A DNA stretch of 64,000 bases from assembly GCF_014303395.1 (NCBI RefSeq), contig NZ_CP060298.1, positions 3,181,001-3,245,000 of the forward strand, given 5' to 3'. Within the stretch, counting starts at the first letter, position 1. Every line of letters begins with the position of its first letter. The translations under genes were made by a program, and so were the position numbers. The stretch comes from Nakamurella sp. PAMC28650. Lineage in GTDB: Bacteria > Actinomycetota > Actinomycetes > Mycobacteriales > Nakamurellaceae. Shown here piece after piece: positions 9,977 through 32,456 of the stretch. Under the pieces are notes generated by a model. The model was given only the letters and a program-made list of their open reading frames with translations, was not told where the DNA came from and ran no database searches.

Positions 9977-9999
9977 GTACTACAACTAACAGTGTTGCA
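9977..9999 (-). promoter_or_regulatory. Shared catabolic operator, site 1
   Basis: Read toward the oxidoreductase gene the site is AACACTGTTAGTTGTAGTAC, which I use as the reference form. It contains the small palindrome AACACTGTT. Five other sites in the 9-32 kb region match it closely, each at a gene start. The binding regulator is not identified. Confidence 0.7.
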
Positions 10000-10046
10000 T
10001 GTGCGAACCAGCAGCGGTGCAGCGACATCGACCTCGCCTCCTGATC

Positions 10047-11651
10047 TCATCGGCGGCCGTCATCCGGGGATTGCCGGTGGCGGGCGTCAGGTGCGTCCGA
10101 GGTGCCCAGTGCCCACATCGCCCGCAAGGCCGGCTTGTCGATCTTGAGACTCGCGGTGCGGGGCAGGGTGTCGACGAAACGGACCCGGGTGGGCTTCTTG
10201 TAGGAGGCGATCCGCGCTCGCGCGGCGTCGATCAGCGCCGCCTCGTCCAGGCCAGGATCCGAGACCACCGCGAAGGCCACCACCGTCTCGCCCCAGCGCT
10301 CGTCGGGCACACCGAACACGGCCAGTTCGGCCAGTCCGGGCAGGCCGGCCATGGCGGCCTCGACCTCGGCGGGATAGACGTTCATCCCGCCCGAGACGAT
10401 CATGTCCTTGGCCCGGTCGGTGACGTACAGATAGCCCGCCTCGTCCAACCTCCCGATGTCGCCGGTCAGCAGTCTTCCGTCCCGGACGGCCTCGGCCGTC
10501 AGGTCCGGCCGGCCGAGGTACCCGACGAACTGGGTGTCAGAGCGGACGGTGATCTCGCCCGTCTCGCCCGGGCCGAGGCCGGCGCCGTCGGCCCCCACGA
10601 TGGCGATGTCGGCCTGGTGGACGGGACGTCCGGCGCTCGCGTAGACGTCCTGGGCGCGGCAGGCGGGGGTCCAGTCCTCGTGTTCGGTCCTGGTCACCGG
10701 AGCGCCGGTCTCCGTCATTCCGTAGGCCTCGGCAAAACGTGACCCGACCGCCTCGACCAGAAGCCGGACCGCGGCCGGCGGCAGACTGGAGCCCGAATGC
10801 ACTGCCACCCGCAAGGTCTCGAGCACTTCCGGTCTTCGCCGCACCTGCTCGACGAACTCGCCGGCCAGCGGAGTGGGCAGGTAGGTGAACTGGGAGCCCT
10901 CGGCAACCATCGCGTCGAACCACTGGTCCGGCGCCAGCCCGGCCATGAAGGAGAGCTCACCCCTGAGATAGAGGTGGGGGAGCACCACACCCCAGATACC
11001 GGACACGAACGAGAGCGTGCCGGTGAAGGCGCACCGGCTGCGGGGACGCATGTCGAAGTGCACCGGCATGTGCTGCAGGATCCGCAGCAGGGTGCGCTGG
11101 CTGTGCATCACCCCCTTGGGCCTGCCGGTGGTCCCGCTGGTGTATCCGACGATGGCCAGATCATCGGGACTGCGCGGGATCTCGGGGACCGACGTCGATG
11201 ATCGGTCCAGCAGGTCGCTCCACCGCAGGTGACCGCGGGCCGCCGGCTCGCCCAGCGCGACGACCAGTGGGGTGTCCCCGACCGCGTCCAGATCCGCGAT
11301 CCGCGGCCCGAGTTCGTCGGCGTAGGCGAAGGCGCGGGGCCGGGCGTCCGCCAGGATGCCGCTCACCTCAGCGCCGGCCAGTCGGTCGTTGACGTGCACC
11401 GCAGGGTAGCCGCCGAGGAGGCACCCGAGATAGGCCTCGACGGCCTCCACCCGATCCGTGACCATCAGCGCGACGGGGTCGCCCGGCCGAAGTCCGTTGC
11501 CGCTTAGGGCGTGTGCGAACCGGCTGGCGTTCTCCAGCAGCTGCCGATGGGTCCGGGTCCGGCCGTGGGCCCGCAGTGCGACCCGGCCGCCGCCACGATC
11601 GAGCGATCTGGCCAGTGCGCCGCCGGCCGTGTCCACCGGGGAGGCGATCAA
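10047..11651 (-). CDS. AMP-forming acyl-CoA synthetase (ligase 1)
   Basis: ANL-superfamily enzyme that activates a carboxylic acid as acyl-AMP and then acyl-CoA; about 534 residues. It shows the phosphate loop YTSGTTGRPKG, the AYGMTETG adenine motif, LLTGDIGRLDEAGYLYVTDRAKDMI and a C-terminal PRTASLKIDK containing the catalytic lysine. TTG 11651 overlaps the stop of the upstream LEH-like gene, suggesting coupling; GTG 11636 is an alternative and the frame is open to 11723. The substrate cannot be told from the sequence. It follows ligase 2 and the LEH-like protein in one leftward operon. Confidence 0.88.
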   Translation of the reverse strand: MIASPVDTAGGALARSLDRGGGRVALRAHGRTRTHRQLLENASRFAHALSGNGLRPGDPVALMVTDRVEAVEAYLGCLLGGYPAVHVNDRLAGAEVSGILADARPRAFAYADELGPRIADLDAVGDTPLVVALGEPAARGHLRWSDLLDRSSTSVPEIPRSPDDLAIVGYTSGTTGRPKGVMHSQRTLLRILQHMPVHFDMRPRSRCAFTGTLSFVSGIWGVVLPHLYLRGELSFMAGLAPDQWFDAMVAEGSQFTYLPTPLAGEFVEQVRRRPEVLETLRVAVHSGSSLPPAAVRLLVEAVGSRFAEAYGMTETGAPVTRTEHEDWTPACRAQDVYASAGRPVHQADIAIVGADGAGLGPGETGEITVRSDTQFVGYLGRPDLTAEAVRDGRLLTGDIGRLDEAGYLYVTDRAKDMIVSGGMNVYPAEVEAAMAGLPGLAELAVFGVPDERWGETVVAFAVVSDPGLDEAALIDAARARIASYKKPTRVRFVDTLPRTASLKIDKPALRAMWALGTSDAPDARHRQSPDDGRR

Positions 11652-12049
11652 TGGGCGAAGTCCTGGCTCGGGACGACGCCCATGCCGCGCAGCAGCGTTG
11701 CCCGGTCGTAGTACTCGAGCCACTGGGTCACCATGCCGTTCTCGACGGACAGGATGCCGACCACCGGTACCTCGCCGTGATGGCCGTTGGTGTCGAAATC
11801 GTCCACCCGCTCGACCCAGACGCGGCCGCCGATGATCCCGATCGCCTTGATGTGCAACTTGATCCGTTCGAGCCCCCTGGCCAGCACGGTGAGCCGTTCG
11901 GCGAAAGCGGCTCTTCCGACGACCGGTTCGCTCATCACGCTCTGCAGCACCCCGTCGGGAGCGAAGAGTGCCTCCACCCTGGCCCAGTCCTGGGCCGACC
12001 AGGAATCCAGGATCTCCTGGACCACTGCGATCTTCTCGTCGTCCGTCAT
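11648..12049 (-). CDS. Limonene-1,2-epoxide hydrolase-like protein (SnoaL/NTF2 fold)
   Basis: A 133-residue cone-fold protein. The segment VERVDDF...QWLEYYD matches the catalytic half of limonene-1,2-epoxide hydrolases, where an Arg-Asp-Asp set activates water. R81 and D83 are present and W110 is kept, but the second acid is E112 instead of Asp. It may be an epoxide hydrolase with an altered acid, or a related isomerase or cyclase. It sits between two acyl-CoA ligases with overlaps on both sides (4 bases each), so it should act in the same pathway. The assignment is by fold and motif; the substrate is unknown. Confidence 0.65.
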   Translation of the reverse strand: MTDDEKIAVVQEILDSWSAQDWARVEALFAPDGVLQSVMSEPVVGRAAFAERLTVLARGLERIKLHIKAIGIIGGRVWVERVDDFDTNGHHGEVPVVGILSVENGMVTQWLEYYDRATLLRGMGVVPSQDFAH

Positions 12050-13758
12050 GCTCGCTGCCCCACTTCTTCGCGTAGTTCTCGTTTGAGGATCTTGCCGACC
12101 GGGTTGCGTGGCAGTTCGCTGCGCAGGTCCAGCCGCTCGGGGAGCTTGAAGGTGGCGATCTCCTGCGCGACGAGGTGGTCGACGACGTCCTGCAGCGTGA
12201 TCGATCTTCCCGGCCTCGGGACCACCACGGCGCAGATTCGCTCGCCGAGCACGTCGTCGGGGTATCCGATCACCGCGACGTCCGCGATGTCCGGGTGGCC
12301 GGCGATCATCGTCTCGAGTTCGGCCGGGGCGATGTTCATCCCGCCGCGGATGATGAGATCCTTGGCCCTGTCGACGTAGCGGAGGAATTCCTGGTGCGGC
12401 CCGTCGATCACGAACAGATCACCGGTCCGCAGGAAACCCTCTTCGTCGAATGGACTCGGCACCCGGGCGGCGTCCAGGTATCCGGCGAACAGGCTGGGCC
12501 CGCGAAGCCGCAGCTCACCCGGGACTCCGGGTTCGTCGATCTCCCGTCCGGTGGCGGGATCGACGAGCTTGATCGTGGTCTGCCTCGATGCGGGGAAACT
12601 CCACTCCCGTCCGCCGCCGTAGCGCGGGAAGAAGCGCGCCCGCTGGGCGGCGTCGGTCATCAGGACGACGTCCGTCATCAGGGAGATGCCCTCGTTGGAC
12701 CCGAAGTAGTTGATGATGCTGATGCCGTGTCGCTCGTGCCAGCCCCGCACCATCCACTCCTGCAACGGGACCGATCCGGAGCCGATGCTGGTCAGGGACG
12801 AGATGTCGGCGTCCGCAAGGATCTCCTCCCGCTGCAGCAGCAGGGCCAGCACCGCCGGGGGTGCCAGCGTGTAGGTGATCCGCTCGTCCGTCACCTGCCG
12901 GAGGAACACCGCCAGATCGAAGGAATGATGTTGCACCATCAGGCATCCCACCCGGAGCCACGGCAGCAACATGCCGTTGATACCGGCCATGTTCACCATC
13001 GGGAAGGGGTTCAGGATCCGGGAATCATGGGTCAGGTGCGGCGAGTAGACCGTGTCCCAGCTCATCACCAGCCACTCGTAGTGGGCACGGGGGACCCCCT
13101 TCGGCCGGCTCTCCGTCCCGGAGGTCCAACAGATGGTGATGCAGTCGTTCGGGTTCACCGGGTGGGTGTCGGCGTAGGCCTGCACCCCGCCCGCATGGTG
13201 ATCGTCCAGGCCGGCGACCGCGGCGGCCAGCCCCGTGGAACCGGGCACCACGGCTGGGCCGTAGTGCAGAACGGTGCGGAGCGATGCGATGTCGGGCATC
13301 ATGCTGACCACATCGGCGGCCGCGGAACGTTTCTGGATGCGGTCGGCGGTGATGAAGGCCGTGATCGCGCCGATGTTGCCGAGCTCCACCAACTCATGAC
13401 GCCGGTACTGCACGGGCAGCGGCGAGATGATCGCCCTGACCCGCCAGATGGCCAGGTAGGCACAGACCAGCTCGACGGTGTTGGGCAGCTGGACGGCGAT
13501 GACGTCCCCTTCGCCCAGACCCGACGCCAGCAGAACGGCGGCCAGCTGGTCGACCTCGACGGCCAGCTCGTTCCAGCTGACCCGGCGCGGGTCGAGGTCG
13601 ACCAGATCCCGCTTGTTCGGCGCGTCGACCACGGCCGGGTCGTCGCCGAACTCGGCCACCCGGTCCAGGAACAACTGCTGCACCGTTTCATCGGTCCAGG
13701 CTCCGCGTCCGACCCATTCGTCGATCCGGTCCTGCGGGTGCATCTTCCTGGCAGGCAT
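12046..13758 (-). CDS. AMP-forming acyl-CoA synthetase (ligase 2)
   Basis: A 570-residue ANL-superfamily acid-CoA ligase. Motifs: CWTSGTESRPKGVPR phosphate loop (residues about 210-225), YFGSNEGISL adenine motif, FLRTGDLF...YVDRAKDLIIRGGMNIAPAE hinge, and LPRNPVGKILKREL with the catalytic lysine. ATG 13758 has AGGAG 6 bases upstream. It resembles ligase 3 at 23230 far more than the other two: both share the NDCxTxCWTSGTE and ILNPFPMVN...GM...LPWL segments and have about the same length. The pair may be duplicates acting on related acids. It is translated just upstream of the LEH-like gene. Confidence 0.9.
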   Translation of the reverse strand: MPARKMHPQDRIDEWVGRGAWTDETVQQLFLDRVAEFGDDPAVVDAPNKRDLVDLDPRRVSWNELAVEVDQLAAVLLASGLGEGDVIAVQLPNTVELVCAYLAIWRVRAIISPLPVQYRRHELVELGNIGAITAFITADRIQKRSAAADVVSMMPDIASLRTVLHYGPAVVPGSTGLAAAVAGLDDHHAGGVQAYADTHPVNPNDCITICWTSGTESRPKGVPRAHYEWLVMSWDTVYSPHLTHDSRILNPFPMVNMAGINGMLLPWLRVGCLMVQHHSFDLAVFLRQVTDERITYTLAPPAVLALLLQREEILADADISSLTSIGSGSVPLQEWMVRGWHERHGISIINYFGSNEGISLMTDVVLMTDAAQRARFFPRYGGGREWSFPASRQTTIKLVDPATGREIDEPGVPGELRLRGPSLFAGYLDAARVPSPFDEEGFLRTGDLFVIDGPHQEFLRYVDRAKDLIIRGGMNIAPAELETMIAGHPDIADVAVIGYPDDVLGERICAVVVPRPGRSITLQDVVDHLVAQEIATFKLPERLDLRSELPRNPVGKILKRELREEVGQRA

Positions 13759-13776
13759 GGGCAACTCCTTTCACGC

Positions 13777-13821
13777 TGTCGAGCTGTTCGGTGTCGGATC
13801 GTTCGGTGTCGAGTCGTTCGG
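13777..13821. repeat. 15-bp tandem repeat, three copies
   Basis: Three near-identical 15-bp units (TGTCGAGCTGTTCGG and variants) at 13777-13791, 13792-13806 and 13807-13821, in the gap between the original end of the substrate-binding gene and the ligase 2 start. No function is seen. Confidence 0.8.
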
Positions 13822-13841
13822 TGTACCGCGGTCGGAGCGGA

Positions 13842-13955
13842 TCACTTGCCGCTGACGTCGATCAATCCGCCGTCGGCCTTGAACGTCTTGGTCGCCGCGC
13901 TCCAGATGAACGTCTGGAAGGCACTGAAACCAGTCAGCTCGGTGGGGGTGCTGAC
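13842..13955 (-). pseudogene. Orphaned C-terminal tail of the substrate-binding protein
   Basis: Beyond the TAG stop of the binding-protein gene the same frame stays open for another 37 codons and ends at TGA (13842-13844). The tail reads like the normal protein end (VSTPTELTGFSAFQTFIW, later LIDVSGK) and keeps high third-position GC. The gene therefore once ended here, and the TAG at 13956-13958 probably replaced a tyrosine codon. Alternatives are stop-codon readthrough or a sequencing error. Confidence 0.7.
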
Positions 13956-15272
13956 CTATTTGATGCCGTTGATCAGCATCGGTGATGCGTAGGACTGGTC
14001 ACGTGCGGCCTGGATGACGCCGACGTGCGTCAGACCGCTGGACGACGCGGCGGCCTGCTTCAGGGTGTTGATGGTCAGGTCCGCCTCTAGCCAGCCGGCC
14101 ACCGTGATGGTGTTGGTCCGGTCGGCCGTGGTGACCTCCGAGAGGTACTGCTCGACACCGGCGTCGGCGGCCAGTGCCGGGTCGCCCGGATCCTTCAGGT
14201 ACTTGGGGATCACGTTGCCGTCCGCCGCCGCGCCGGCCGCGACGTAGGCCGTGCCGTCGGCGCAGTTGCTCGGGTTCACGACGAGCTTGGGGGTGAACCC
14301 GATGCGGGCCAGGGCCTGCACCACCGGTCCGCAGTCGGTGGTGATGCCTGCCGTGTAGACCACGTCGACGCGGGCGGCCTTGAGAGCGGTGGCGGCAGCG
14401 TTGGGATCGGTCGACGGCGCGATGGCGGAGATGGTCAGGTTCGTACCCTTGGCGGCCGCCTGGAACGCCTCGGACTCGCCCTTGCCGGACGCGGTCTGGT
14501 TCTCGGCGATACCGACCTTCGCCCCGTTCGGGAACTTCGCCTTGATCACACCGATGTCGTATTTCGCCTCGGCGTTGCCGGCCGGCAGGAACTGCACCGT
14601 CCATGGGTACTGCGAGATGTCGCGATACTGCTGGACCGAAGAACTGGCGTACAGCAGCGGAATGCAGGCGGCGTTCTGGTCGTCGGCCATCGCCCCGACC
14701 GGACCGCTGCCGAAGGTCACCAGCGAATCGACGTGATCGCTCTGGATGAACTGCACCTCGTTGGCCTTGGCCTTGTCCGGGGCGTACGCATCGTCCTTGA
14801 ACTGGACGTCGATCTTCACCCCGTTGATGCCGCCCTTGGCGTTCTCGGCGGCGATCCGCGCCTTGTAGCCGTCCAGCGCGTAGGTGACCACCCCGGCGAC
14901 GGGCCCGGAAAGCGGTGCGCTGTAACCGATCTTGTAGGTCCCGGTGATCACCTTGGTGGCCGAGGCCGGATCGTCGCACTTGGAGGTGTCGACCTTGAAT
15001 CCGCCGGCCGTCGCGCCGGGGGAGGACGCGGCGGAACCACTGGACGCGGCCGGGGCGGAGGACGCCGACGAGCCGGACGCGGCGGCCGGGCTCCCGGCCG
15101 CGGCGGGTACGGAGCTGGCGGCGGCGGCGGCGGCCGTCGAGGCCGAGGATGACGGGGACGAGCCGGCAGCACCGGACGAGCTCGACGAGCAACCCGAAAG
15201 AGCAAGGGCTGCAACCGTGAGACATGCGAACGGGGCAACCAGGTACGACCGTGGACCTGATGATCTGAGCAC
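13956..15272 (-). CDS. Liv-type ABC transporter substrate-binding lipoprotein, C-terminally truncated
   Basis: A 438-residue periplasmic-binding-fold (type I) lipoprotein that would capture the imported ligand. The N-terminus is a lipoprotein signal peptide with lipobox LSGC (Cys28), followed by a Ser/Ala-rich linker to about residue 95. The binding domain then begins YKIGYSAPLSGPVAGVV. Liv-type importers move branched-chain amino acids but also aromatic acids and amides; context favours an organic acid here. It ends at an in-frame TAG (13956-13958) about 38 codons before the apparent ancestral end at 13842, so the last strand and helix are missing. It follows the two permease genes. Confidence 0.88.
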   Translation of the reverse strand: MLRSSGPRSYLVAPFACLTVAALALSGCSSSSSGAAGSSPSSSASTAAAAAASSVPAAAGSPAAASGSSASSAPAASSGSAASSPGATAGGFKVDTSKCDDPASATKVITGTYKIGYSAPLSGPVAGVVTYALDGYKARIAAENAKGGINGVKIDVQFKDDAYAPDKAKANEVQFIQSDHVDSLVTFGSGPVGAMADDQNAACIPLLYASSSVQQYRDISQYPWTVQFLPAGNAEAKYDIGVIKAKFPNGAKVGIAENQTASGKGESEAFQAAAKGTNLTISAIAPSTDPNAAATALKAARVDVVYTAGITTDCGPVVQALARIGFTPKLVVNPSNCADGTAYVAAGAAADGNVIPKYLKDPGDPALAADAGVEQYLSEVTTADRTNTITVAGWLEADLTINTLKQAAASSSGLTHVGVIQAARDQSYASPMLINGIK

Positions 15273-15323
15273 GAGAGGCCTTTCTGAGAGGGCGGGCAGG
15301 TGTGGGTCAAGGACGTTGGTGGG

Positions 15324-16535
15324 TCAGGGACGTGCGTGGGTCGGGGGGTTCTCCGTCGGGGGGTTCCCGGTCGGATCGTGGGGTTCGCGTTGGTCGGGTG
15401 CGACCGGCGTGCGCAGACCCGGAACCACCTGCAGCACCTTGCGGGTGAGGCGGAAGAAGGCGCCGGTGAGTCCCTCCGGGGCGACGAACACGATCAGGAT
15501 CAGTGCGGCCCCGAACAGCACCGCGGCCGCCTGCCCCTGCCCGATGTCCGAGGTGTAGTAGGGGATGTAGACGACGGCGATGGCACCGATGATCGGCCCG
15601 AATCTGGTCGCCTCACCGCCGATCACGAGACCGGTCAGCAGGGCGATCGCATTCAGAAGGGTGAACGAGTCGTTGGCGACCAGGCTCCCGAGATACATCG
15701 CGAACAGCCCGCCGGCGACTCCGGTGAGGGCACCGGACAGGCCGAAGGAGATGGTCTTCACCGCCGCCAGGTTGACTCCGGAGGCGGCGGCGGCGATCTC
15801 GTTGTCCCTGGCCGCCATCATGGCCAGCCCGTACCGGCTGCGCACGATGTTGTGCACCAGCACCATCACGATCACCAGGATCACGACGCAGAGCCAGTAC
15901 AGCCACTTTCCTCGGTCCGACAGGGTGAACCCGGAAAAGGCGGGCGGGCGGAGCATGGCCCGTCTGATGGTCAGGCCCTGCGCGCCCCCGGTGAGGTCGC
16001 TGAACCGCGCGATCACCTCCGGGAAGGCCACCCCGAACGCCAGCGTGACCATCGCCAGGTACAGACCCCGGATGCGAAGGGCGGGCAGACCGATCACCAG
16101 ACCGACCAGGAAGCAGACGATGAACGCGATCGGCAGGGTGTACTCGGCGCGCCAGCCGTATTTCACCACCAGGATCCCGGTGGTGTACGCGCTGATTCCG
16201 AAGAAGGCGGAATGGCCGACGTAGACCAGCCCGGTGTAGCCGGTCGCGATGTTCAGCCCGGCGATGGCGATCGCGTAGATCATCACCCTGGTCAGCTGGC
16301 CCTGGTTGAACTCGCCGAGACCGCCGCCCCACACGACGATCACGGCCGCGAGGATCACGCCGAGCGTCAACAGCGCGAGGTGCGGTGTCGAGTTGCGCCG
16401 GATCGACCACGGCAGGCGGCGTCCCGCCTCACGGATCGGCGGCGCCGACTGGCGGGAGGCAACCAGTTCGCCATCGGGCGGTGGTGGCGTCAGGTCGGCG
16501 GCCGGCCCGTCGGGGTTGACGGATTGGGTTGTCAC
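15324..16535 (-). CDS. Liv-type ABC transporter permease (LivM-like)
   Basis: A 403-residue inner-membrane permease. A 45-residue polar N-terminus precedes about nine hydrophobic helices. The segments GLNIATGYTGLVYVGHSAFFGISAYT and the cytoplasmic GLAMMAARDNEIAAAASGVN loop, which contacts the ATPases, identify the LivM branch. A proline-rich 40-residue tail is unusual. GTG 16535 overlaps the LivH stop by 4 bases. With LivH it forms the channel for the ligand delivered by the adjacent binding protein. Confidence 0.92.
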   Translation of the reverse strand: MTTQSVNPDGPAADLTPPPPDGELVASRQSAPPIREAGRRLPWSIRRNSTPHLALLTLGVILAAVIVVWGGGLGEFNQGQLTRVMIYAIAIAGLNIATGYTGLVYVGHSAFFGISAYTTGILVVKYGWRAEYTLPIAFIVCFLVGLVIGLPALRIRGLYLAMVTLAFGVAFPEVIARFSDLTGGAQGLTIRRAMLRPPAFSGFTLSDRGKWLYWLCVVILVIVMVLVHNIVRSRYGLAMMAARDNEIAAAASGVNLAAVKTISFGLSGALTGVAGGLFAMYLGSLVANDSFTLLNAIALLTGLVIGGEATRFGPIIGAIAVVYIPYYTSDIGQGQAAAVLFGAALILIVFVAPEGLTGAFFRLTRKVLQVVPGLRTPVAPDQREPHDPTGNPPTENPPTHARP

Positions 16536-17431
16536 ACGCGCTCCACTCGTCTGGCACCGAACAGGCCGGTGGGCTTGGCGACCAGCACCAGCACGATGAT
16601 CACCAGAGCCAGCGTGAGCTGCAGTGATCCGCCGAGGAAGGTGGCGTAGCCGTTGATCATCGATTCCGCGATACCGAGCCCGAGTCCTCCGACGACGGCT
16701 CCCTTGGCGCTGTCGAGGCCACCGAACAGGGCGGCCGCCGAGGCGAAGATGAGAATCGAGAAGAAGGAACTCAGATCCAGTTCCTGAGGCGGCAGCACGG
16801 GTACGAGCAGAATCCCGGCGAGTGCGCTGATGGCCGCGGAGATCCCCCAGCTCATGCTCAGCACGGTGCCGACCTTCACACCGGCCAGCGACGCGGATTC
16901 GGCGTTGGTCGCCACAGCGCGCATCTTGAGCCCGAGCCCGGTGCGGTGGAACAGCAACGACAGCAGGCCGACCACCACCAGCATGATCAGGAAGATCAGG
17001 ATGGTGTCGTAGTGCAGCCGTGCACCGCCGACCAGGAAGTAATCGGACTCCCCGCTGGGGAGCAGGTCCGGGAACTGCTTGTTGGCCGGTCCCCAGATCC
17101 AGCCGTCGAGCCCGTTGAGCCCGGTGAACAGGCCCAGACCCACGATGAGGACGGCGGTTTCGCTACGTCGTCGCACCGGGCGGATCAGTGTCCGTTCGGT
17201 CACCACCCCCATCACGAAGCCGACGGCCATGGCCGGTACCAGGGCAACCCAGATCGGCAGGCCCTTGGTGGTCAGCCACCAGGCGATGAAGCAGCAGAAC
17301 AGGGCGAACTCGCCCTGGGCGAAATTGATCGTCGACGAACTCCGGAACACCACCACCAGGGACAGCGCGATGAGCGTGTAGAGCGAGCCCGCGGTCACCC
17401 CGGAGAACAGTCGGTCGAGGAAGATGTCCAC
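16532..17431 (-). CDS. Liv-type ABC transporter permease (LivH-like)
   Basis: About 299 residues and eight or so membrane helices. The N-terminal LFSGVTAGSLYTLIALSLVVVFRSSSTINFAQGEF stretch (given here as parts of the first two helices) and the LGLKMRAVATNAESASLAGV coupling loop are diagnostic of LivH permeases. The start is taken as GTG 17431, which gives the family N-terminus and has GGGAG about 11 bases upstream; the frame is open to 17563. It is co-transcribed with the ATPases upstream and overlaps LivM downstream. Confidence 0.92.
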   Translation of the reverse strand: MDIFLDRLFSGVTAGSLYTLIALSLVVVFRSSSTINFAQGEFALFCCFIAWWLTTKGLPIWVALVPAMAVGFVMGVVTERTLIRPVRRRSETAVLIVGLGLFTGLNGLDGWIWGPANKQFPDLLPSGESDYFLVGGARLHYDTILIFLIMLVVVGLLSLLFHRTGLGLKMRAVATNAESASLAGVKVGTVLSMSWGISAAISALAGILLVPVLPPQELDLSSFFSILIFASAAALFGGLDSAKGAVVGGLGLGIAESMINGYATFLGGSLQLTLALVIIVLVLVAKPTGLFGARRVERV

Positions 17432-17504
17432 TGGAGGTGATGCTCCCGTTCTCGTTGGGGGGTGGGCGATTCGGACCGAGGGCCTGGAGTGGGGCCCGGG
17501 AAGG

Positions 17505-18265
<761 letters not shown>

Positions 18266-18269
<4 letters not shown>

Positions 18270-19024: not shown

Positions 19025-19097
19025 CGTCGCGCCTCCCTGTTTCCAGTCATCGGGCACGGCTTCTCGCCGACAGCCGCCGTGGGTGTGATCTGACACA

Positions 19098-19115
19098 CTT
19101 CAGTTAACAGTGTGA
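19098..19115 (-). promoter_or_regulatory. Shared catabolic operator, site 2
   Basis: Read toward the LivG gene: ACACTGTTAACTGAAGT, which matches the reference over ACACTGTTA exactly and over most of the rest. It is the weakest of the six sites but lies in the divergent gap between the importer operon and the NTF2/SDR pair. Confidence 0.5.
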
Positions 19116-19195
19116 TTGTTACTGCATGAACGGACATTGGTCAACGGGTGGAGGCACTTTTGCTCCTGTGAGTACATTCGTCTGGTCAAGTCACG

Positions 19196-19208
19196 CTCTT
19201 AGTTGTAG
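19196..19208 (+). promoter_or_regulatory. Shared catabolic operator, site 3
   Basis: CTCTTAGTTGTAG matches 12 of 13 positions of the reference half CTGTTAGTTGTAG. It ends 9 bases before the ATG of the NTF2-like gene, oriented toward it, and shares the divergent promoter gap with site 2. Confidence 0.6.
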
Positions 19209-19217
19209 CGTGACTAC

Positions 19218-21512: not shown

Positions 21513-21674
21513 CTCACCTCCCGATCGCCGGGTCGGCCCCGCAGGTCCCGTTCACCCGAGGGGGTGGACGCCCGATGTCATCGGCCAACCTAACTTCCGG
21601 GCCGACATCTGCCAAAGCGGGCGGCCTGACGGGTCGCTCACTCCGGGTCCCGCCGCGGTGGCCCGCCTGGTGGA

Positions 21675-24996: not shown

Positions 24997-25091
24997 CGGG
25001 ATCCTTTCCAGATCCTCTTCACAGCTGCCGGCCGGCCCTCGTTGGCAGGACGGGTACCTCTCGGGTCGAGCGGCCCGACGGTGGCGTCTCG

Positions 25092-26021
25092 TCAGGGTGC
25101 GGCTCGTCCGACACCTTCAGGCGCATCCAGGATCAGCCCTTCCTGGGCCACCGACGCGACCATCGATCCATCGGGGGCGAAGACCTGGGCCCTGGTGAAG
25201 GCCCGGCCGTCCTGTGCGGCCGGGGACAGTTGCTCGAACAACATCCACTCGTCGGCGCGGACCGGCCCGTGGAACCACACCGCATGATCGACCGACACAC
25301 CGTCCCAGGCTTGACCGCCCACGATCTGCTCGCAACCCACGGATACGCCGTGCGGCACCAGAGCGGCGGCCAGGATGGTGACATCGCTGGCGTAGACCAG
25401 CAGCGCCTGGTGGAGTAGCTGATCCGGAGGCAGCGGAAACGGGACACGCTGCCAGACCCGATCGGTGGTCTGCTCCGCTCCGATCCGTCGTGAGCTGACC
25501 GGCGGGTCGACGGTCAGCGGATTGATCCTGATCTCCAGCGCCTCGAAGCCCCGCCAGGCCGGCCCGAGACCGCCCCAGCGGACCGCGGCCTCCTCCAGAG
25601 TGGGAACCTGTTCCGGGGAAATCGATCTCGGCGGGTGCAGCTGGTGGCAGACGCCGCCGCCGGTGGCAGCGAACGAGGTCGTCATGGTGGCGATCGGCCG
25701 GCCGTGCTGCTCGGCGGTGACCTGGCGCGAGGACAGCCGCCGACCATCACGCACCCGCTCGACCCGGTAGTGGATGGGCTCGGCGGGATCTCCGGCGCGC
25801 AGGAAGTAGGCGTGCAGCGAATGGGCGGTCTTGGCGTCGGTCACCGTGCGCCCGGCCGCCATCAGGCCCTGGGCCAGAACCTGTCCGCCGAACACCCGGC
25901 TCATGCCCATCGAGACCTGCGGGCCCAGGAAGGTGTCCGGGCCCGTCCGCGAGAGGTCGAGCACGGCCGGCACACGCGGGGCCGGCGAGAAATGTTGCTG
26001 CGCCGTCGGATGCCGGTTCAC
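25092..26021 (-). CDS. tesB: Acyl-CoA thioesterase II
   Basis: About 309 residues forming a double hot-dog fold. The N-terminal VFGGQVLAQGLMAAGRTV and SLHAYFLRAGDPAEPIHYRVERVRDGRRLSSRQV segments, and the C-terminal VSVDHAVWFHGPVRADEWMLFEQLSPAA with the catalytic Asp, match TesB-type thioesterases. The second-domain Gln/Thr positions fit within GRAFTRAQVFAPDGSMVASVAQEG. It hydrolyses acyl-CoA, perhaps relieving CoA trapping or releasing a product. GTG 26021 overlaps the SDR stop by 4 bases; other in-frame GTGs are 26030 and 26045. Cytoplasmic. Confidence 0.87.
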   Translation of the reverse strand: MNRHPTAQQHFSPAPRVPAVLDLSRTGPDTFLGPQVSMGMSRVFGGQVLAQGLMAAGRTVTDAKTAHSLHAYFLRAGDPAEPIHYRVERVRDGRRLSSRQVTAEQHGRPIATMTTSFAATGGGVCHQLHPPRSISPEQVPTLEEAAVRWGGLGPAWRGFEALEIRINPLTVDPPVSSRRIGAEQTTDRVWQRVPFPLPPDQLLHQALLVYASDVTILAAALVPHGVSVGCEQIVGGQAWDGVSVDHAVWFHGPVRADEWMLFEQLSPAAQDGRAFTRAQVFAPDGSMVASVAQEGLILDAPEGVGRAAP

Positions 26022-27031
26022 CGATCGCACCCGGACCGATCGCACCGGTCGGCGAGCGTCTCGGTCACGATCGCGGCGAAGTCACCGAAGGCGGCCTGTG
26101 CGGTCTCGAAGGCTCGTCCCGGTGCGTCGCGGCTCTCCCGGACGAGTGCGGCCAGTCCCGCCCCGGTGAGACCCGGAGGGACGGCCACCATTCCGAATTC
26201 GACGGCCGCGGCCGCCCGCATCGCGCCGCCGCCGCAGACCAGGACCTGGCCGTTGACCGTCGAGGTGGGGTCCACCAGCGCGGTGACGACCGGTGCCACC
26301 GATTCGGCGGTCATCAGGTCGCGGTGGTGGGGATCCATTCCGGCGTCGGTCATCTGGGTGGTGGCATAGGGAAGGACGACGTTCGTCAGGACGTCGCGGC
26401 GTGCACCCTCGACGGCGATGCACCGACCGAGGGCGATGACGGCGCCCTTGCTGGCCGAGTAGGCGCCGGCGGTCGGCTCCCCGTGGAGGCCGGCCGTCGA
26501 GGCGATCAGGACGATGCGACCGAAACCGGCCTGCCGCATCAGCGCCGAACACGCGGCGGCCAGATGGGCGGTGCCCCCGATGTTGATGGCGGTCACCGCG
26601 TCGAAGCGTGCGGGGCTGGTCTTGTGGAACATCTCGGGGTTGCTGACGGCGGCGCTGGTGACCAGGAAGTCGACCCGTCCGTAGTGCTCGAGGGCGGTAC
26701 CGATCACCGCGTCGACCGAGCCGGGATCGGCCACGTCCCCGTGGTCGGCGACCGCCGTGCCGCCGGCATCCCGGATCTCCTTCACGACGTGGTCGGCCGG
26801 GCCGAGCCCGGCCGCGTCGATCTCCCGGTTCCGATTGTTGACCACCACGGCCGCTCCGGCGGAGGACAGCGAGAGGGCGAAGGCCCGGCCCAGTCCCTTC
26901 CCGCCGCCGGTGACGATGCCCGCCCGGCCGGCCAGGGGACCACTCGTCCGAACGTCCGCGCCGCCCGCTCGACCGTCCGGCCACGAAACGGCAGGACCAC
27001 CGCCGGCGGGAGATTGCGACACCGATGTCAT
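26018..27031 (-). CDS. SDR of the multifunctional beta-oxidation type (3-hydroxyacyl-CoA dehydrogenase-like)
   Basis: About 337 residues, longer than a classical SDR. TGGGKGLGRAFAL binds the cofactor; VVVNNRNREIDAAGLGPADHVVKEI is the segment typical of peroxisomal-type multifunctional enzyme 2 and bacterial relatives that oxidise 3-hydroxyacyl-CoA. The catalytic Ser, Tyr and Lys lie in LIASTAG and YSASKGA. Residues after about 250 form an extension. ATG 27031 is used; GTG 27043 is possible and sits directly against operator site 4. It is co-transcribed with the thioesterase and divergent from the thiolase, consistent with a beta-oxidation-like step. Confidence 0.85.
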   Translation of the reverse strand: MTSVSQSPAGGGPAVSWPDGRAGGADVRTSGPLAGRAGIVTGGGKGLGRAFALSLSSAGAAVVVNNRNREIDAAGLGPADHVVKEIRDAGGTAVADHGDVADPGSVDAVIGTALEHYGRVDFLVTSAAVSNPEMFHKTSPARFDAVTAINIGGTAHLAAACSALMRQAGFGRIVLIASTAGLHGEPTAGAYSASKGAVIALGRCIAVEGARRDVLTNVVLPYATTQMTDAGMDPHHRDLMTAESVAPVVTALVDPTSTVNGQVLVCGGGAMRAAAAVEFGMVAVPPGLTGAGLAALVRESRDAPGRAFETAQAAFGDFAAIVTETLADRCDRSGCDR

Positions 27032-27044
27032 CCGCCTGGTCACT

Positions 27045-27060
27045 CTGTCAGTTGTAGTAC
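27045..27060 (+). promoter_or_regulatory. Shared catabolic operator, site 4
   Basis: CTGTCAGTTGTAGTAC differs from the reference CTGTTAGTTGTAGTAC at one of 16 positions. It lies directly before the SDR gene, which starts on the opposite strand at 27031 or 27043, and 85 bases from site 5 in the same divergent region. Confidence 0.7.
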
Positions 27061-27141
27061 GCGAGCCGGCGATTCACAAGGGGTTCGGCCGGTCCGGGTG
27101 TCGGGCGGTGTCGAGTTGGCGGCGGCGATTGACGAGAAGCA

Positions 27142-27157
27142 CTGTTTGTTGTAGTAC
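27142..27157 (+). promoter_or_regulatory. Shared catabolic operator, site 5
   Basis: CTGTTTGTTGTAGTAC differs from the reference at one of 16 positions. It points toward the thiolase gene, 62 bases before its likely ATG at 27220. Confidence 0.7.
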
Positions 27158-27219
27158 TGGATGAACAGCCCGCGACGTCGGCACCGATGGCGCTGCGCAA
27201 TGCCGGAAGGGTCTCGAGG

Positions 27220-28452
27220 ATGAGCGTCAGCTCCAGCTGGGTCATCGGTGGTCACCAGACCGATTTCGCCCGCAATACCGTGCGCGAGGGCTCGACCTTC
27301 GCGGATCTGTTCACCGAGACCGTCGCGTCGACGCTGGTCTGCGCCCACCTCGCGCCGGCCGACGTCGATGTCATCCATGTCGGCAACGCCTTCGGTCAGC
27401 TGTTCACCGGCCAGGGTCAGCTCGGCGGCATGCCGGCCACCGTGGAGCCGGCGCTGTGGGGTGTGCCCGCCGTCCGTCACGAGGCCGCCTGCGCGTCCGG
27501 ATCGATGGCGCTGCTGGGCGCGATGGCCGAGATCGAAGCCGGTCGTTACGACGTCGCTCTGGTGGTGGGGGCCGAGATCGAGAAGACGGTCGACGGCGAT
27601 CTGGCTGCGCAGTACCTGGGAGCGGCCGCCTACATCGGCCACGAGGGTCAGGACGCCTCGTTCATGTGGCCGCACATGTTCGACAGACTGGCCGACGAGT
27701 ACGACCGGCGTTACGGTCTCGACGACCGGTACGTGCACGCGATCGCGGAGCTGAACGTGCGCAACGCGCGGGTGAACCCGAACGCGCAGACCCGCAACTG
27801 GACGTACACGGCGGACAGCTTCAGCGACGACGACCTGGCCAATCCGCGGGTGGAGGGGCGGGTGCGCCGGACGGACTGCAGCGCGATGACCGACGGTGCC
27901 GCCGGCGTGGTCGTGGTCTCGGATCGATACCTGGCCGCCCATCCGGACATCGCGGCCCGGCCCAGGGCGCAGATCCTCGGCTGGGGTCACCGCACCGTCG
28001 GGCTGTCGCTGCAGCAGAAGCTGGACCACTCGGCGAACGACGCCTACACCCTGCCCCACCTGCGGCAGACGATCACCGACGCCTTTCGCCGGGCCGGTAT
28101 CGCAGACGTCGACCAGCTGGACGCGATCGAGACCCACGACTGCTTCTCGATGAGCGAGTACGCCGCCATCGACCATTTCGGCATCACCGGGCCCGGTGAC
28201 AGCTGGAAGGCCGTCGACAGCGGCGACATCGAGATCGGCGGCCGGATCCCGATCAACCCCGGCGGGGGCCTGATCGGCGGCGGTCATCCGGTCGGGGCCA
28301 CCGGCGTGCGCATGATGTTGGACGCCTTCAAGCAGGTCACCGGCCAGGCCGGGGCCTACCAGGTGGAGAACGCGAAAACCGTTGCCACCCTGAACATCGG
28401 CGGCAGCACGACCACGTGTGCCAGTTTCGTCGTCGGTTCCGGCGACGAGTAG
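27220..28452 (+). CDS. Thiolase (SCP2-thiolase-like acetyl-CoA acyltransferase)
   Basis: About 410 residues. The nucleophile is C91 in EAACASGSMAL; the C-terminal active-site motifs are ETHDCFS (H306) and GGGHPVGATG (H356). It would cleave a 3-ketoacyl-CoA, or condense acyl groups, as the last step of a beta-oxidation-type cycle. The divergence from standard thiolases (HDCF rather than NEAF) is typical of SCP2-type enzymes used on bulky substrates such as sterols and terpenoids. ATG 27220 has GGAAGGG 8 bases upstream; ATG 27187 is an alternative. The cleavage oxygenase gene follows 13 bases later. Confidence 0.9.
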   Translation: MSVSSSWVIGGHQTDFARNTVREGSTFADLFTETVASTLVCAHLAPADVDVIHVGNAFGQLFTGQGQLGGMPATVEPALWGVPAVRHEAACASGSMALLGAMAEIEAGRYDVALVVGAEIEKTVDGDLAAQYLGAAAYIGHEGQDASFMWPHMFDRLADEYDRRYGLDDRYVHAIAELNVRNARVNPNAQTRNWTYTADSFSDDDLANPRVEGRVRRTDCSAMTDGAAGVVVVSDRYLAAHPDIAARPRAQILGWGHRTVGLSLQQKLDHSANDAYTLPHLRQTITDAFRRAGIADVDQLDAIETHDCFSMSEYAAIDHFGITGPGDSWKAVDSGDIEIGGRIPINPGGGLIGGGHPVGATGVRMMLDAFKQVTGQAGAYQVENAKTVATLNIGGSTTTCASFVVGSGDE

Positions 28453-28465
28453 GAGGACCTCTGCG

Positions 28466-29977
28466 ATGGACATCGAAATTCTGGGCCGTGCACTGACCAC
28501 GCTGCCGGCCGACGACGACCACCCCTACCGGACCGGCCCCTGGCGGCCGCAGACGGTGGAACGCAAGGCCGACGATCTTCCGGTGATCGGCGAGATCCCG
28601 GCCGATCTGGACGGCACCTACCTGCGAAACACCGAGAACCCGGTCCACCCGGCCATGGAGATCTATCACCCGTTCGACGGGGACGGAATGGTCCACGTGG
28701 TGGGTTTCCGTGACGGGAAAGCGTTCTACCGCAACCGTTTCGTCCAGACCGACGGATTCCGGGCCGAGCAGGAGGCGGGGCGGCCGCTGTGGGCCGGCCT
28801 GGCCGAGAACCCGGCCAAGTCGCCGACCCAGACCGGTTGGGGGGCAAGGGGTCGGATGAAGGACGCGTCCAGTACGGACGTCGTCATGCACAATGGCGTC
28901 GCGCTGACCAGCTTCTACCAGTGCGGCGACCTCTACCGGCTCAACCCGACCACCCTGGAGACCCTCGGCAAGGCGACCTGGAACGGTGCGTTCCCCTCCG
29001 ACGTCGGGGTGTCGGCCCATCCCAAGCTGGACGAGCGCACCGGCGAGCTGCTGTTCTTCAACTACGGTACCGACGCTCCCTACATGCACTACGGCGTGGT
29101 CGACCAGCAGGACAACCTGGTCCACTACGTGGATGTCCCGCTGCCCGGCCCGCGGTTGCCCCACGACATGGCGTTCACCGAGCACTACTCGATCCTGAAC
29201 GACCTGCCGCTGTTCTGGGAGCCCGCGGCGCTGGCCGGCGGCAAGTACGCGGCCACGTTCCACCCGGACCTGCCGACCAGGATCGCCGTCATCCCGCGCC
29301 GCGGGCAGACCTCCGACATCAGGTGGTTCGAGGCCGACCCGACGTACGTGCTGCACTGGGTCAACGCCTACGAGGACGGCGACGAGATCGTCCTCGACGG
29401 CTTCTTCCAGCAGGACCCGGAGCCCCCGGCCGGCAACGGAACGCTCTACCAGCGCATGTTCCGGTTCCTGGACAACGAGCTGATGGGACCCCAACTGCAC
29501 CGGTGGCGGCTGAACCTGGTGACGGGTCTGAGCAAGGAGGAGCCGCTGACCGAGAGCAAGAGCGAATTCGGGATGATCAACCAGCAGTACGCCGGGCGGC
29601 GGCACCGCTACAGCTACTCGGCCACGACGCTCCCCGGCTGGTTCCTGTTCAACGGCCTGATCAAGCACGACGCCGACACCGGAAAGGAGGAGCGGTATCT
29701 GTTCGGGGACGGGGTGTTCGGCAGCGAGACCGCGATGGCCCCCCGGCTCGGCTCGACCGGCGAGGACGACGGTTACCTGGTCACCATCGTGTCGGACATG
29801 AATCACGACGTCTCCGAATGCCTGGTGTTCGACGCCGCCGACCTCACTGCCGGACCGCTGGCCAGGGTCCAGCTGCCGGAACGGGTGTCCAGTGGTACCC
29901 ACTCCACCTGGGCCCCGGGGTCGATGATTCCTGATTGGCGCAGCCACGACGACCCGGCGAGTGCTCTCCATCTGTAG
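28466..29977 (+). CDS. Carotenoid/lignostilbene cleavage oxygenase family enzyme
   Basis: A 503-residue seven-bladed beta-propeller non-haem iron enzyme that splits a C=C bond with O2 to give two carbonyls. The four iron histidines are visible: H185 (SAHPKLD), H233 (LPHDMAF), H297 (YVLHWVN) and H479 (SGTHSTWAPG). K132 in GRMKDASSTDVV sits where, from memory, lignostilbene dioxygenases carry the lysine that anchors a phenol. No signal peptide is seen. ATG 28466 has a clear AGGAGG site. Its place between thiolase and VOC genes suggests it cleaves the growth substrate or an early intermediate to aldehydes or acids fed to the CoA ligases. Isoeugenol oxygenase activity is another option. Confidence 0.9.
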   Translation: MDIEILGRALTTLPADDDHPYRTGPWRPQTVERKADDLPVIGEIPADLDGTYLRNTENPVHPAMEIYHPFDGDGMVHVVGFRDGKAFYRNRFVQTDGFRAEQEAGRPLWAGLAENPAKSPTQTGWGARGRMKDASSTDVVMHNGVALTSFYQCGDLYRLNPTTLETLGKATWNGAFPSDVGVSAHPKLDERTGELLFFNYGTDAPYMHYGVVDQQDNLVHYVDVPLPGPRLPHDMAFTEHYSILNDLPLFWEPAALAGGKYAATFHPDLPTRIAVIPRRGQTSDIRWFEADPTYVLHWVNAYEDGDEIVLDGFFQQDPEPPAGNGTLYQRMFRFLDNELMGPQLHRWRLNLVTGLSKEEPLTESKSEFGMINQQYAGRRHRYSYSATTLPGWFLFNGLIKHDADTGKEERYLFGDGVFGSETAMAPRLGSTGEDDGYLVTIVSDMNHDVSECLVFDAADLTAGPLARVQLPERVSSGTHSTWAPGSMIPDWRSHDDPASALHL

Positions 29978-30022
29978 GGCTTCTCGCGTGTCCCCGACAT
30001 TTCACCGATGAAGGAGTGTTCG

Positions 30023-30730
30023 ATGAGTGCACCTACCACCAGCTGGGCCAAGCTGCGCCAGGTGGTCATCGCGACCGCTCACCACGGCGCCGACACTGCC
30101 GCCGTCCGGAAGGCTTTCGGTCTGGGGGAGGGTTTCGCCGACCCGGAGCTGGCGAGGATCTCGCTGGTGGACGCGACGCTGCCGGTCTCCGCCGGGCGCT
30201 ATCTCGAGTTGGTGGGATCGACCGACGGCGTCGGTCCGGTCGGCCGGTGGCTCTCGAAGATCGGTGGCCGCGGCGGATTCGTGCTCTCCGTCCAGCATCC
30301 CGATCCCGACGCCGTCCGCGAGCGGTGCCGGACCCTCGGCGTCCGGGTCCCGATCGACGAGTTGGCCTTCGGTCGGACGGTGCTGCAACTCCATCCGAAG
30401 GATGTCGGTCTGGTACTGGAGATCGACGGTATCGCCGACCGGGATGAATGGTTCTGGGACGACATCGACCCCGGCCCGGAGGCAGGTGCCCGCGTCGACG
30501 AGATCGTCGGGGTCGAGGTGCCGGTGGCCGATCCGGCGGCGATGAACGTCCTCTGGCACCGACTGCTGGATCTGGGTGAGCCGGCTGTGCCGGATCAGAT
30601 CGAGCTGGGCGGCGCGTTCGTGAAGTTCGTGCCGGGTGGACCGTCCGCGGACTGGACGGTGGTGCTGCGCACCGCGTCGGCCGCGGCCGTCGACCCCGGA
30701 CTGCCCGGCATCAGTTTCCGGCTGGTCTGA
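30023..30730 (+). CDS. Two-module VOC family protein
   Basis: A 235-residue protein with two VOC-like modules: residues about 8-140 (LRQVVIATAHHGADTAAVRKAFGLG ... FGRTVLQLHPKDVGLVLEID) and about 158-235 (VGVEVPVADPAAMNVLWHRLLDLG). It resembles the other VOC protein at 22472 in its first module. ATG 30023 has AAGGAG upstream. It follows the cleavage oxygenase by 45 bases and closes the thiolase operon; a strong hairpin comes 31 bases after the stop. Its reaction is unknown, and lyase, isomerase or ring-cleavage chemistry are all possible. Confidence 0.78.
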   Translation: MSAPTTSWAKLRQVVIATAHHGADTAAVRKAFGLGEGFADPELARISLVDATLPVSAGRYLELVGSTDGVGPVGRWLSKIGGRGGFVLSVQHPDPDAVRERCRTLGVRVPIDELAFGRTVLQLHPKDVGLVLEIDGIADRDEWFWDDIDPGPEAGARVDEIVGVEVPVADPAAMNVLWHRLLDLGEPAVPDQIELGGAFVKFVPGGPSADWTVVLRTASAAAVDPGLPGISFRLV

Positions 30731-30768: not shown

Positions 30769-30815
30769 GTCCTGCAAAGTGATCGCTATCGCGATCACTC
30801 TGCAGGACGTCCGGG
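30762..30815. terminator. Long hairpin between convergent operons
   Basis: Twenty-five-base arms (30762-30786 and 30791-30815) pair with one mismatch around a TATC loop. It lies between the VOC stop (30730) and the stop of ligase 4 (30829), so it can serve both strands. There is no following T run, as is common for actinobacterial terminators. Confidence 0.75.
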
Positions 30816-30828
30816 GAGCCGGCCCGGC

Positions 30829-32427
30829 TCAACCCCGGTACTGCTCCCGGAGTCGGTTCTTCAGGAGTTTGCCGCTGGCGTTGCGCGGCAACGACGCCAC
30901 GAATTCGACCCCCACCGGACACTTGAAGTGGGCGAGGCGCTCACGCGCGAAATCGATCAACTCCTGCTCGCGGAGCAGGTGGCCCGGCCGCCGGACGACG
31001 ATCGCGTACGGCGACTCGCCCCAGGTCGGCGAAGCGATGCCGATGACGGCGATCTCGGCGACCGCGGGATGCGCGGTGAGCGCGCTCTCCACCTCGGCCG
31101 GGAAGACGTTCTCCCCGCCGCTGACGATCATGTCCTTCAACCGGTCGTGCAGATAGAGGTAGCCCTGGTCGTCGAAGCTGCCGCCGTCGCCGGTCCGCAG
31201 CCAGCCGTCCGGGGTGATGGCGGCAGCGGTGGCCGCCGGGTTGTCCCAGTATCCCAGCATGACGTGACCGCCCCGGATCAGTACCTCGCCCTTCACGCCC
31301 ACCGGAACTCGTTGCAGCGTCACCGGATCGACCACCACCAGCTCGACGCCCGACATCACGCGCCCGACCGAACGCAGCTGCTGTTCGCGGCCCGCTTCGG
31401 GGAAATGGTCCTCCGGCCGGAGAATCGTGACGCCGCCGTTGGACTCCGTCAACCCGTAGCTGGACAGAAATCTGCACCCGAAGATCGCGGTGGCACGTTG
31501 GATGACCGGCAGCGGCATCGGTGCCGATCCGTAGATCAGGTACTTCAACGAAGACCAGTCGGCGGTCGACGCAGCCGGCACGTCGACCATCCGCTGCACC
31601 AGCGTCGGGACCACGGCGGCGTGCGACACCCTGCGCCCCACCAGGAGTTCGACGAGGGCGTGCGGTTCGGTCTCGGTCTCCAGCAGCAGCGCCGATCCGT
31701 TCAGGGTGGCCACCACGGCGATGCCGAAGCCGGAGATGTGGAAGAACGGGATCGGGGCCATCGCCACCGAGGTCGAGTCGAACCCGGCGTCGTGGTGCAG
31801 GACGGCCAGGGCCTGGCTCATGTTGTCGCCGGTCAGCATGATGCCCTTGGGCAGGCCGGTGGTGCCCGAGGTGTAGAAGACGACGGCCGGGTCGTGCGGT
31901 GCTGCCTCGAAGCCGGGGTCCGCTGCGGGATGCGGCCCCATCCAGCCGATGTAGTCATCGGAGGTGACGACCCGGCGCAACCATGGATGCGCATCCGGAC
32001 GCACGGCCGGCTCGCCGACCCCCTGCACGAGGACCGCCGGCCGGGCATCGCGCAGGATGCCGTCGAGCTCGGTCGGCGCCAGGCGATTGTTCAGCGCGGT
32101 GGCGATGGCGCCGATCTTCGCCGCGCCGTAGAGCACCTCGAGGAAGGACGGTGCGTTCACCCCGACGTAGGCCACCCGGTCACCGGGCGCGACACCATCT
32201 GCGATCAGGGCACGGCCCACCTGCGAGGAACGAGCGTCCAGCTCCCCGTAGGTGGTGGTGTCCGCGCCCTGCAGGATGGCCGGTGCATCTGGCGTTGCTC
32301 CGGCCCGTGACCGGAGGATTCCGGCGATGTTGAGCACGCGGGTGCCGTCGGGGTGATAACTCCAGTTCTGCTCCGGTGCAGCGTTTCCCGACTGATCTGG
32401 GTTGCCCGCGACACCGGTGTCTGACAC
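30829..32427 (-). CDS. AMP-forming acyl-CoA synthetase (ligase 4)
   Basis: A 532-residue ANL-family ligase. Motifs: FYTSGTTGLPKGIM (residues about 180-193), the SSYGLTESNG adenine motif, WLRTGDGGSFDDQGYLYLHDRLKDMIVSGGENVFPAE, and LPRNASGKLLKNRL with the catalytic lysine. It is closer to the general FadD/benzoate-ligase-like group than ligases 2 and 3. GTG 32427 begins only 10 bases after operator site 6 with no ribosome site, so a leaderless message is likely (inference). It is monocistronic and convergent with the thiolase operon. Substrate unknown. Confidence 0.9.
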   Translation of the reverse strand: MSDTGVAGNPDQSGNAAPEQNWSYHPDGTRVLNIAGILRSRAGATPDAPAILQGADTTTYGELDARSSQVGRALIADGVAPGDRVAYVGVNAPSFLEVLYGAAKIGAIATALNNRLAPTELDGILRDARPAVLVQGVGEPAVRPDAHPWLRRVVTSDDYIGWMGPHPAADPGFEAAPHDPAVVFYTSGTTGLPKGIMLTGDNMSQALAVLHHDAGFDSTSVAMAPIPFFHISGFGIAVVATLNGSALLLETETEPHALVELLVGRRVSHAAVVPTLVQRMVDVPAASTADWSSLKYLIYGSAPMPLPVIQRATAIFGCRFLSSYGLTESNGGVTILRPEDHFPEAGREQQLRSVGRVMSGVELVVVDPVTLQRVPVGVKGEVLIRGGHVMLGYWDNPAATAAAITPDGWLRTGDGGSFDDQGYLYLHDRLKDMIVSGGENVFPAEVESALTAHPAVAEIAVIGIASPTWGESPYAIVVRRPGHLLREQELIDFARERLAHFKCPVGVEFVASLPRNASGKLLKNRLREQYRG

Positions 32428-32436
32428 CCGTCGAGG

Positions 32437-32456
32437 CTACAGCTAACGGTGTTAAC
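32437..32456 (-). promoter_or_regulatory. Shared catabolic operator, site 6
   Basis: Read toward ligase 4: GTTAACACCGTTAGCTGTAG. It matches the reference AACACTGTTAGTTGTAG at 15 of 17 positions, ends 9 bases before the GTG start and is in the same orientation as sites 1-3 and 5. Confidence 0.65.

Follow-up and report, generated by a model that had tools for sequence, protein, structure and literature searches.

What controls a gene island in which the same short motif stands in front of one putative transcript after another? The question is raised by a stretch of 64,000 nucleotides of the Nakamurella sp. PAMC28650 genome (C1:3181001-3245000, called the window below; positions without a prefix are those of the window), where six copies of one motif are spread over an island of acyl-coenzyme A (CoA) ligase, transporter and oxygenase genes. 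The original prediction assigned all six to a single regulator, perhaps the tandem HxlR protein encoded at 20544. Our comparisons of sequences indicate that the six sites are very probably operators of one local regulator, and that this regulator is most likely the island-encoded tandem HxlR (20544-21512, minus strand). We regard the motif as an operator because, across actinomycetes, it is linked to the tandem HxlR gene, and because sister operons that lack the adjacent gene do not have it.

All six sites are present where they had been placed. Site 1 (9975-9999, minus strand) lies between LIG1 and an LLM oxidoreductase gene (8907-9974). The site itself stands, whereas the span given for it does not: the 20-mer printed corresponds to 9996-9977, and 9999-9977 comprises 23 bases. 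Site 2 (19093-19117, minus strand), of type II (TCACACTGTTAACTGAAGTG), is located where the LivG operon begins. It overlaps GTG 19096, the start picked by the open reading frame finder, so LivG probably begins further inside, for instance at GTG 19057. Site 3 (19189-19213, plus strand) precedes a SnoaL/NTF2-like gene and SDR1. Sites 4 (27038-27062) and 5 (27135-27159), both on the plus strand, have the same orientation, site 4 being 97 bp upstream; the arrangement is alike in the relative L099 (110 bp). Each of the two is identical in 15 of 16 positions of the core, as had been reported. Site 5 lies ahead of the thiolase and carotenoid oxygenase genes, and TTGACG stands there 17 bp upstream of TAGTAC (27138); TTGACG is likewise found 17 bp upstream of TAGTAA in L099. 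Site 4 lies across the SDR2 start: 27041-27061 overlaps the predicted start (27043/27031), and the site is directed away from SDR2 and toward the thiolase. It is thus the single exception to the observation, which we reproduced, that five of the six sites point at their own gene. Site 6 (32432-32456, minus strand) is ahead of the acyl-CoA ligase gene LIG4. Gene starts are mechanical predictions throughout, and operons are inferred from spacing.

The motif is rare. In the own genome of 5,629,850 bases, its core of 13 bases, one mismatch being allowed, has five occurrences in 5.63 Mb, and four of them are inside the window. With two mismatches the core is found at 27 places in all, fewer than its backward control pattern (94). 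A 21-column position weight matrix (PWM) built from the six sites assigns 27-36 bits to them and 13 bits to the next window position. The genome-wide scan that had been suggested as a check returned only eight places, six of which belong to the window. They were obtained with model R1, a sequence-only model of the six sites, whose matches at E ≤ 10 are the six sites together with C1:1616842 and C1:2917699, and with model R2, based on 64 sites, which at E ≤ 5, with 150 of the 250 first-look candidates scored, arrives at these eight again and gives site 6 the lowest score. Whole-genome model searches ran with speed filters. Since the PWM and R1 were trained on the six sites, it is the two extra sites of this genome and the other genomes that provide independent tests. 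The site at C1:1616842 is directly ahead of a LIG4 paralogue with 57% identity. The site at C1:2917699 is about 45 bases ahead of an SDR gene, behind which comes a zinc alcohol dehydrogenase gene, and it faces away from both. Several unlinked transcripts are therefore preceded by a common site, namely those at the six window sites and at the two distant loci, and the predicted regulon is one that reaches past the island.

Site and regulator occur together in other genomes. A search of 397 genomes of the order revealed a tandem HxlR in 53 (E ≤ 1e-30, at most five candidates scored per genome). R1, which represents window sites only and was applied to 397 genomes chosen in the same manner, matched at E ≤ 0.2 in 16 of these 53 genomes and in none of the 344 others (Fisher p 1e-15, and 8e-15 without the own genome, values that are only indicative because the genomes are related). 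Each of the 19 matches outside the own genome has a tandem HxlR gene at a distance of 2.4-6.5 kb, as measured from the lower coordinate of that gene; in genome G017, one of three is nearest to a second tandem HxlR with 33% identity. R2 was trained on many of the order loci and was run on 32 of the 53 tandem-HxlR genomes and on eight of 13 genomes with an HxlR-minus operon; at E ≤ 0.05 it matched in 22 of the 32 and in none of the eight. One R2 site per genome was found in all 16 of the tandem-HxlR genomes searched that belong to the Mycobacterium group (g7). Among 28 loci of the order with a tandem HxlR 42-74% identical to ours (L099-L126), 23 have a site scoring at least 14.5.

The same holds for a set of named relatives, i.e., the best 80 loci among at least 539, which span Kibdelosporangium, Rhodococcus, Gordonia, Mycobacterium/Mycolicibacterium, Actinomadura, Herbidospora, Streptomyces, Aeromicrobium, Mumia, Humibacillus and others. 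The six-site PWM reaches at least 14 bits in 72 of these 80 loci, at least 20 bits in 61, and at least 25 bits in 42; 60 column-permuted PWMs give a mean of 4.7 loci (maximum 25), a mean of 0.17 (maximum 4), and a maximum of 0, respectively. In four of the eight misses (L242, L251, L253, L255) the stretch begins at or inside the oxygenase gene. The common core of the relatives' loci is a site followed by thiolase, oxygenase and tandem HxlR genes. The genes behind the sites vary: thiolase, oxygenase, LIG2 (L234, L238, L254, L269, L286) or SDR1 (L266, L287). In L216 the site is beside the tandem HxlR gene itself, and in L254, L266, L269 and L286 it is kept where neither thiolase nor oxygenase was detected in the stretch available. 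A single regulator for the island is thus strongly supported: the site precedes varied genes, and R1 matches are confined to the tandem-HxlR genomes of the 397 searched. As for its identity, the tandem HxlR is, among the candidates named in the original prediction, the one whose gene accompanies the site across actinomycetes.

A natural experiment is provided by 13 g7 genomes in which the thiolase-oxygenase pair is present (62-68% identity) but no tandem HxlR adjoins it. Twelve of them have no tandem HxlR at E ≤ 1e-30, and the remaining one (G198) has a distant copy on another contig. The site is present in 16 of 16 g7 operons with a close tandem HxlR and in 0 of the 13 without; it was not found either in G024, a genome of another family. 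One HxlR-minus locus, L202, retains a decayed copy (11 bits). The HxlR-minus promoters keep TANNNT, 6-8 nt and ATG in 13 of 13 cases, and 12 of 13 have an upstream hairpin-like element (a loose pattern). By eye, the same element is seen in L211 and L212, which have the tandem HxlR.

These promoters also helped to place the site. TAGTAN had first been assumed to be the -10 box; for Mycobacterium it was replaced by TANNNT after the comparison with the HxlR-minus promoters. With motif columns numbered from the first C of CACTCT, 47 of 54 distinct Mycobacterium sites accompanied by the tandem HxlR have TANNNT at columns 18-23 (all 43 Mycobacterium-titled loci plus 16 g7 loci, with no site in L242, L245, L251 and L253). 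A hand-picked mycobacterial-type set of 53 loci, which leaves out L245, L251-L253, L258 and L259, gives 47 of 51 distinct sites with TANNNT, and in 36 of those 47 the start codon is 6-7 bases beyond the box. In Mycobacterium, the site thus looks like it fills the -35/-10 spacer of an apparently leaderless thiolase-carotenoid-oxygenase-HxlR operon. Such a position, over the spacer and the first part of the -10 box, would explain the shared orientation of the sites in this genus, and the geometry supports steric repression.

The predicted binder consists of two copies of a unit made of an HxlR winged helix followed by HxxC...CxxC. PF01638 matches it with 113.8 bits (cut-off 20.8) in two stretches, and each half alone is above the cut-off. 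The residues H126, C129, C139, H287, C300 and C303 are invariant across 41 aligned tandem-HxlR sequences. The cysteines of the window protein lie in HxxC/CxxC pairs behind each winged helix, and the first of them is C129; an N-terminal redox cysteine of the YodB/CatR type was looked for in this protein and is not there. Cys6 of YodB and Cys7 of CatR are N-terminal redox-sensing cysteines, a subgroup trait (PMC6798810, in excerpt). The AlphaFold2 model is a confident two-unit chain (mean predicted local distance difference test score 89.3, predicted template modelling score 0.88), and its best Foldseek matches are the single-unit proteins PA1607, PA1374 and YodB. The genome encodes a second tandem HxlR, 38% identical (C1:3428222-3429106; 9181-10107 of locus L067, minus strand). 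In a PWM scan of the 20-kb stretch L067 and of another HxlR locus of this genome, L069, no site scored above 10.5. Tandem-HxlR-like proteins with 28-33% identity are also found on plasmids of Rhizobium, Sinorhizobium and Cupriavidus, where, among the matches listed, the annotated ones are named only as helix-turn-helix proteins.

The motif falls into two subclasses, GTCACTCTGTTAGTTGTAGTA and TCACACTGTTAACTGAAGTG, and ACTCTGTTAG is one part of it. Information over 64 sites is highest at C6, C8, T16, G17, A19 and G20 (columns of alignment A4). Sites such as the one at 19192 (GTCACGCT...AGCGTGAC) suggested a palindrome, an idea that was rejected: over 40 sites and 28 axes none is favoured, with mean complementarity of at most 0.34, near expectation at every axis. 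A non-palindromic site is the expected outcome if two unequal HxlR halves bind. Some loci have paired sites. In L102, L216, L234 and L238 tandem sites are 23-27 bp apart and are perhaps cooperative operators; L234 and L238 have one site of each subclass at 27 bp, and L102 has a weak second copy at the same spacing. L220, L221, L246 and L258 contain inverted back-to-back sites with AGAGTNACTCT in common, some of them between divergent genes.

We propose that the tandem HxlR works as a pseudo-dimer within a single chain. Its two winged helices, which are unequal, would each contact one half of the non-palindromic site, whose halves are unequal as well. If the Mycobacterium geometry is assumed, the protein would occupy the promoter between -35 and -10 together with the first bases of the -10 box, so that RNA polymerase would be excluded; most probably, then, it is a repressor. 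It might be released by a pathway metabolite, a CoA thioester, an aldehyde, or a thiol/metal change. Its own operon and the core of thiolase and carotenoid oxygenase would be under its control; in this genome, so would uptake by Liv ABC, the four ligases, the SDRs and the LLM enzyme.

The rival that survives best, while still unlikely, is that the tandem HxlR does bind the site and acts there as an activator, like Bacillus HxlR. One member of the HxlR family is described as a positive regulator, with a gain-of-function response to formaldehyde (PMC7835342, in excerpt). Activation fits poorly with the position of the Mycobacterium site, which takes up the -35/-10 spacer and reaches into the -10 box, and with sister operons that keep an apparently intact promoter without the site. 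We find it improbable that another linked or global regulator binds the site, the tandem HxlR being a mere fellow traveller of the operon. Genes of the MerR-B12 and ANTAR types do lie nearby (7242-8910, outside the island), but no relatives of them were found in the best 80 loci (E ≤ 1e-20, with window proteins as the only queries, so that an unrelated shared regulator would escape), and the site is gone where the tandem HxlR is gone even though thiolase and oxygenase remain.

Slightly less credible still is the explanation that the motif is no operator and represents a promoter element, either an extended -10 or a promoter of an alternative sigma factor. The motif does stand just ahead of starts, mostly in one orientation, and overlaps TANNNT in Mycobacterium, while outside this genus no separate -10 box was identified. 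Against this, all 13 sister operons of the HxlR-minus kind lack the motif and yet retain both the -10 box and the start-codon spacing, its presence follows the regulator gene over the 397 genomes, and several loci have back-to-back or tandem copies. That the six matches are due to chance or to a dispersed repeat can practically be dismissed, given only eight places in 5.63 Mb and conservation across genera ahead of related genes.

Several observations weigh against control of the sites by the tandem HxlR, or against repression as its mode. The 13 HxlR-minus operons form one clade in the oxygenase tree (support 100/99) and so represent one loss, not thirteen. L244, L245, L273 and L289 are true misses, i.e., non-truncated tandem-HxlR loci without a site, and L113, L115, L122, L123 and L124 score under 14.5. 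In L127-L138, with tandem HxlRs of 30-42% identity (42% in L127 and L128; the stretch of L129 is only 3.4 kb), just L134 reaches 14.5, and it comes from G017, which also has a 74% homologue. Loci of more distant tandem HxlRs, L067 of this genome included, are likewise under 14.5. Two g33 loci and one G019 locus with distant tandem HxlRs have, by eye, a related intergenic element, in which only the right half, with the same TGTAG, is similar. Beyond Mycobacterium, columns 18-23 show no enrichment of TANNNT, which 5 of 32 distinct sites and none of the six window sites have there. It is the position of the site, and that only, which favours repression over activation. Finally, co-occurrence by itself does not exclude a second linked regulator.

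The sites head putative transcripts covering 8.9-32.4 kb of the window, presumably with that of the tandem HxlR among them. The likely target of site 1 is the LLM-class oxidoreductase gene (TIGR03841 family, 8907-9974, minus strand), and that of site 2 is a putative operon livG-livF-livH-livM-livK-LIG2-SnoaL-LIG1 (10047-19096, minus strand). Site 3 would serve the SnoaL_4/NTF2-like gene and SDR1 (19218-20569, plus strand). At the head of the putative operon SDR2-TesB-LIG3-glyoxalase-ECH-tandem HxlR (20544-27043, minus strand) is site 4; this operon ends in the regulator gene, which implies autoregulation. Behind site 5 are the thiolase, the carotenoid oxygenase (RPE65 family) and an unassigned 240-aa gene (27187-30730, plus strand), and behind site 6 is LIG4 (30829-32427, minus strand). 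By Pfam, the island comprises four acyl-CoA ligases, a branched-chain-type ABC transporter, SnoaL-like proteins, SDRs, TesB, enoyl-CoA hydratase, thiolase, the RPE65-family carotenoid oxygenase and the LLM enzyme. For the oxygenase, the nearest NCBIfam models, none of which reaches its cut-off, are those of apocarotenoid and lignostilbene dioxygenases; sequence neighbours of the oxygenase in the PDB include carotenoid 9,10-dioxygenase and lignostilbene dioxygenases. A gene at 32489-35446 (plus strand) encodes a secreted-looking protein of 985 aa with GGTSASAPI, which has no Pfam match at E ≤ 1 and which we take by eye to be sedolisin/subtilisin-like. A transposase-like gene (35581-36978, plus strand; HTH_38 and rve), presumably IS30-like, adjoins the island.

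In the open-licence literature of PubMed Central, no description of the motif or of the tandem HxlR was found among the matches listed. Motif strings matched only work that is unrelated by title and abstract (an iflavirus, a lupus polymorphism, a Sulfolobus knockout), wordings for a tandem HxlR led to formaldehyde sensing, and HxlR combined with tandem, with carotenoid cleavage, or with Rv0913c/Rv0914c gave nothing on the system among the matches listed. Rv0913c is a putative carotenoid oxygenase (PMC5133782, in excerpt). The excerpts of PMC7835342, PMC6798810 and PMC6212828 contain no HxlR operator sequence for comparison. The present results put forward an operator, a regulator and a regulon, all open to direct test, for a carotenoid-oxygenase operon conserved in Mycobacterium and other actinomycetes, and membership in the regulon points to a pathway of Liv ABC uptake, CoA ligation, double-bond cleavage and thiolysis. 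It seems reasonably likely that we deal with a widespread and apparently undescribed actinomycete class of single-chain double HxlR proteins, with a possibly zinc-ribbon-like HxxC...CxxC in each half, which bind as asymmetric pseudo-dimers to a directional operator inside leaderless Mycobacterium promoters, and whose regulon has grown from one self-controlled thiolase-oxygenase operon to eight sites here.

Both halves of the tandem HxlR match PF01638 as members of the HxlR/DUF24 family (YodB, CatR, HypR, QsrR, HxlR), and the protein profile-matches the solved YodB, HxlR, YybR/HypR and QsrR. It differs in having two units per chain, each with an added HxxC...CxxC. HxlR proteins bind DNA as homodimers of single-domain chains, for which palindromic operators are usual, whereas here the site is non-palindromic and the predicted regulon belongs to a carotenoid-oxygenase/acyl-CoA pathway. 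The closest solved structures, by profile and by fold, are PA1607 (2f2e) and PA1374 (4gcv) of Pseudomonas aeruginosa; unlike the tandem HxlR, these putative transcription factors are chains of 146 and 168 residues that are matched by one half only. SarS of Staphylococcus aureus (1p4x), which has two winged-helix units in one chain, is a weak Foldseek match (rank 43, 7% identity) of the SarA/MarR type and not an HxlR protein. Mce3R of M. tuberculosis is a double TetR in one chain with a non-palindromic operator and with targets in lipid and cholesterol metabolism (PMC11667970, in excerpt). Its fold is TetR, and it is unrelated to the tandem HxlR; the likeness would be one of working logic, a duplicated DNA-binding unit on a non-palindromic operator. 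If our interpretation is true, the tandem HxlR would be another fused repeat regulator on a one-sided operator, beside the double-TetR Mce3R.

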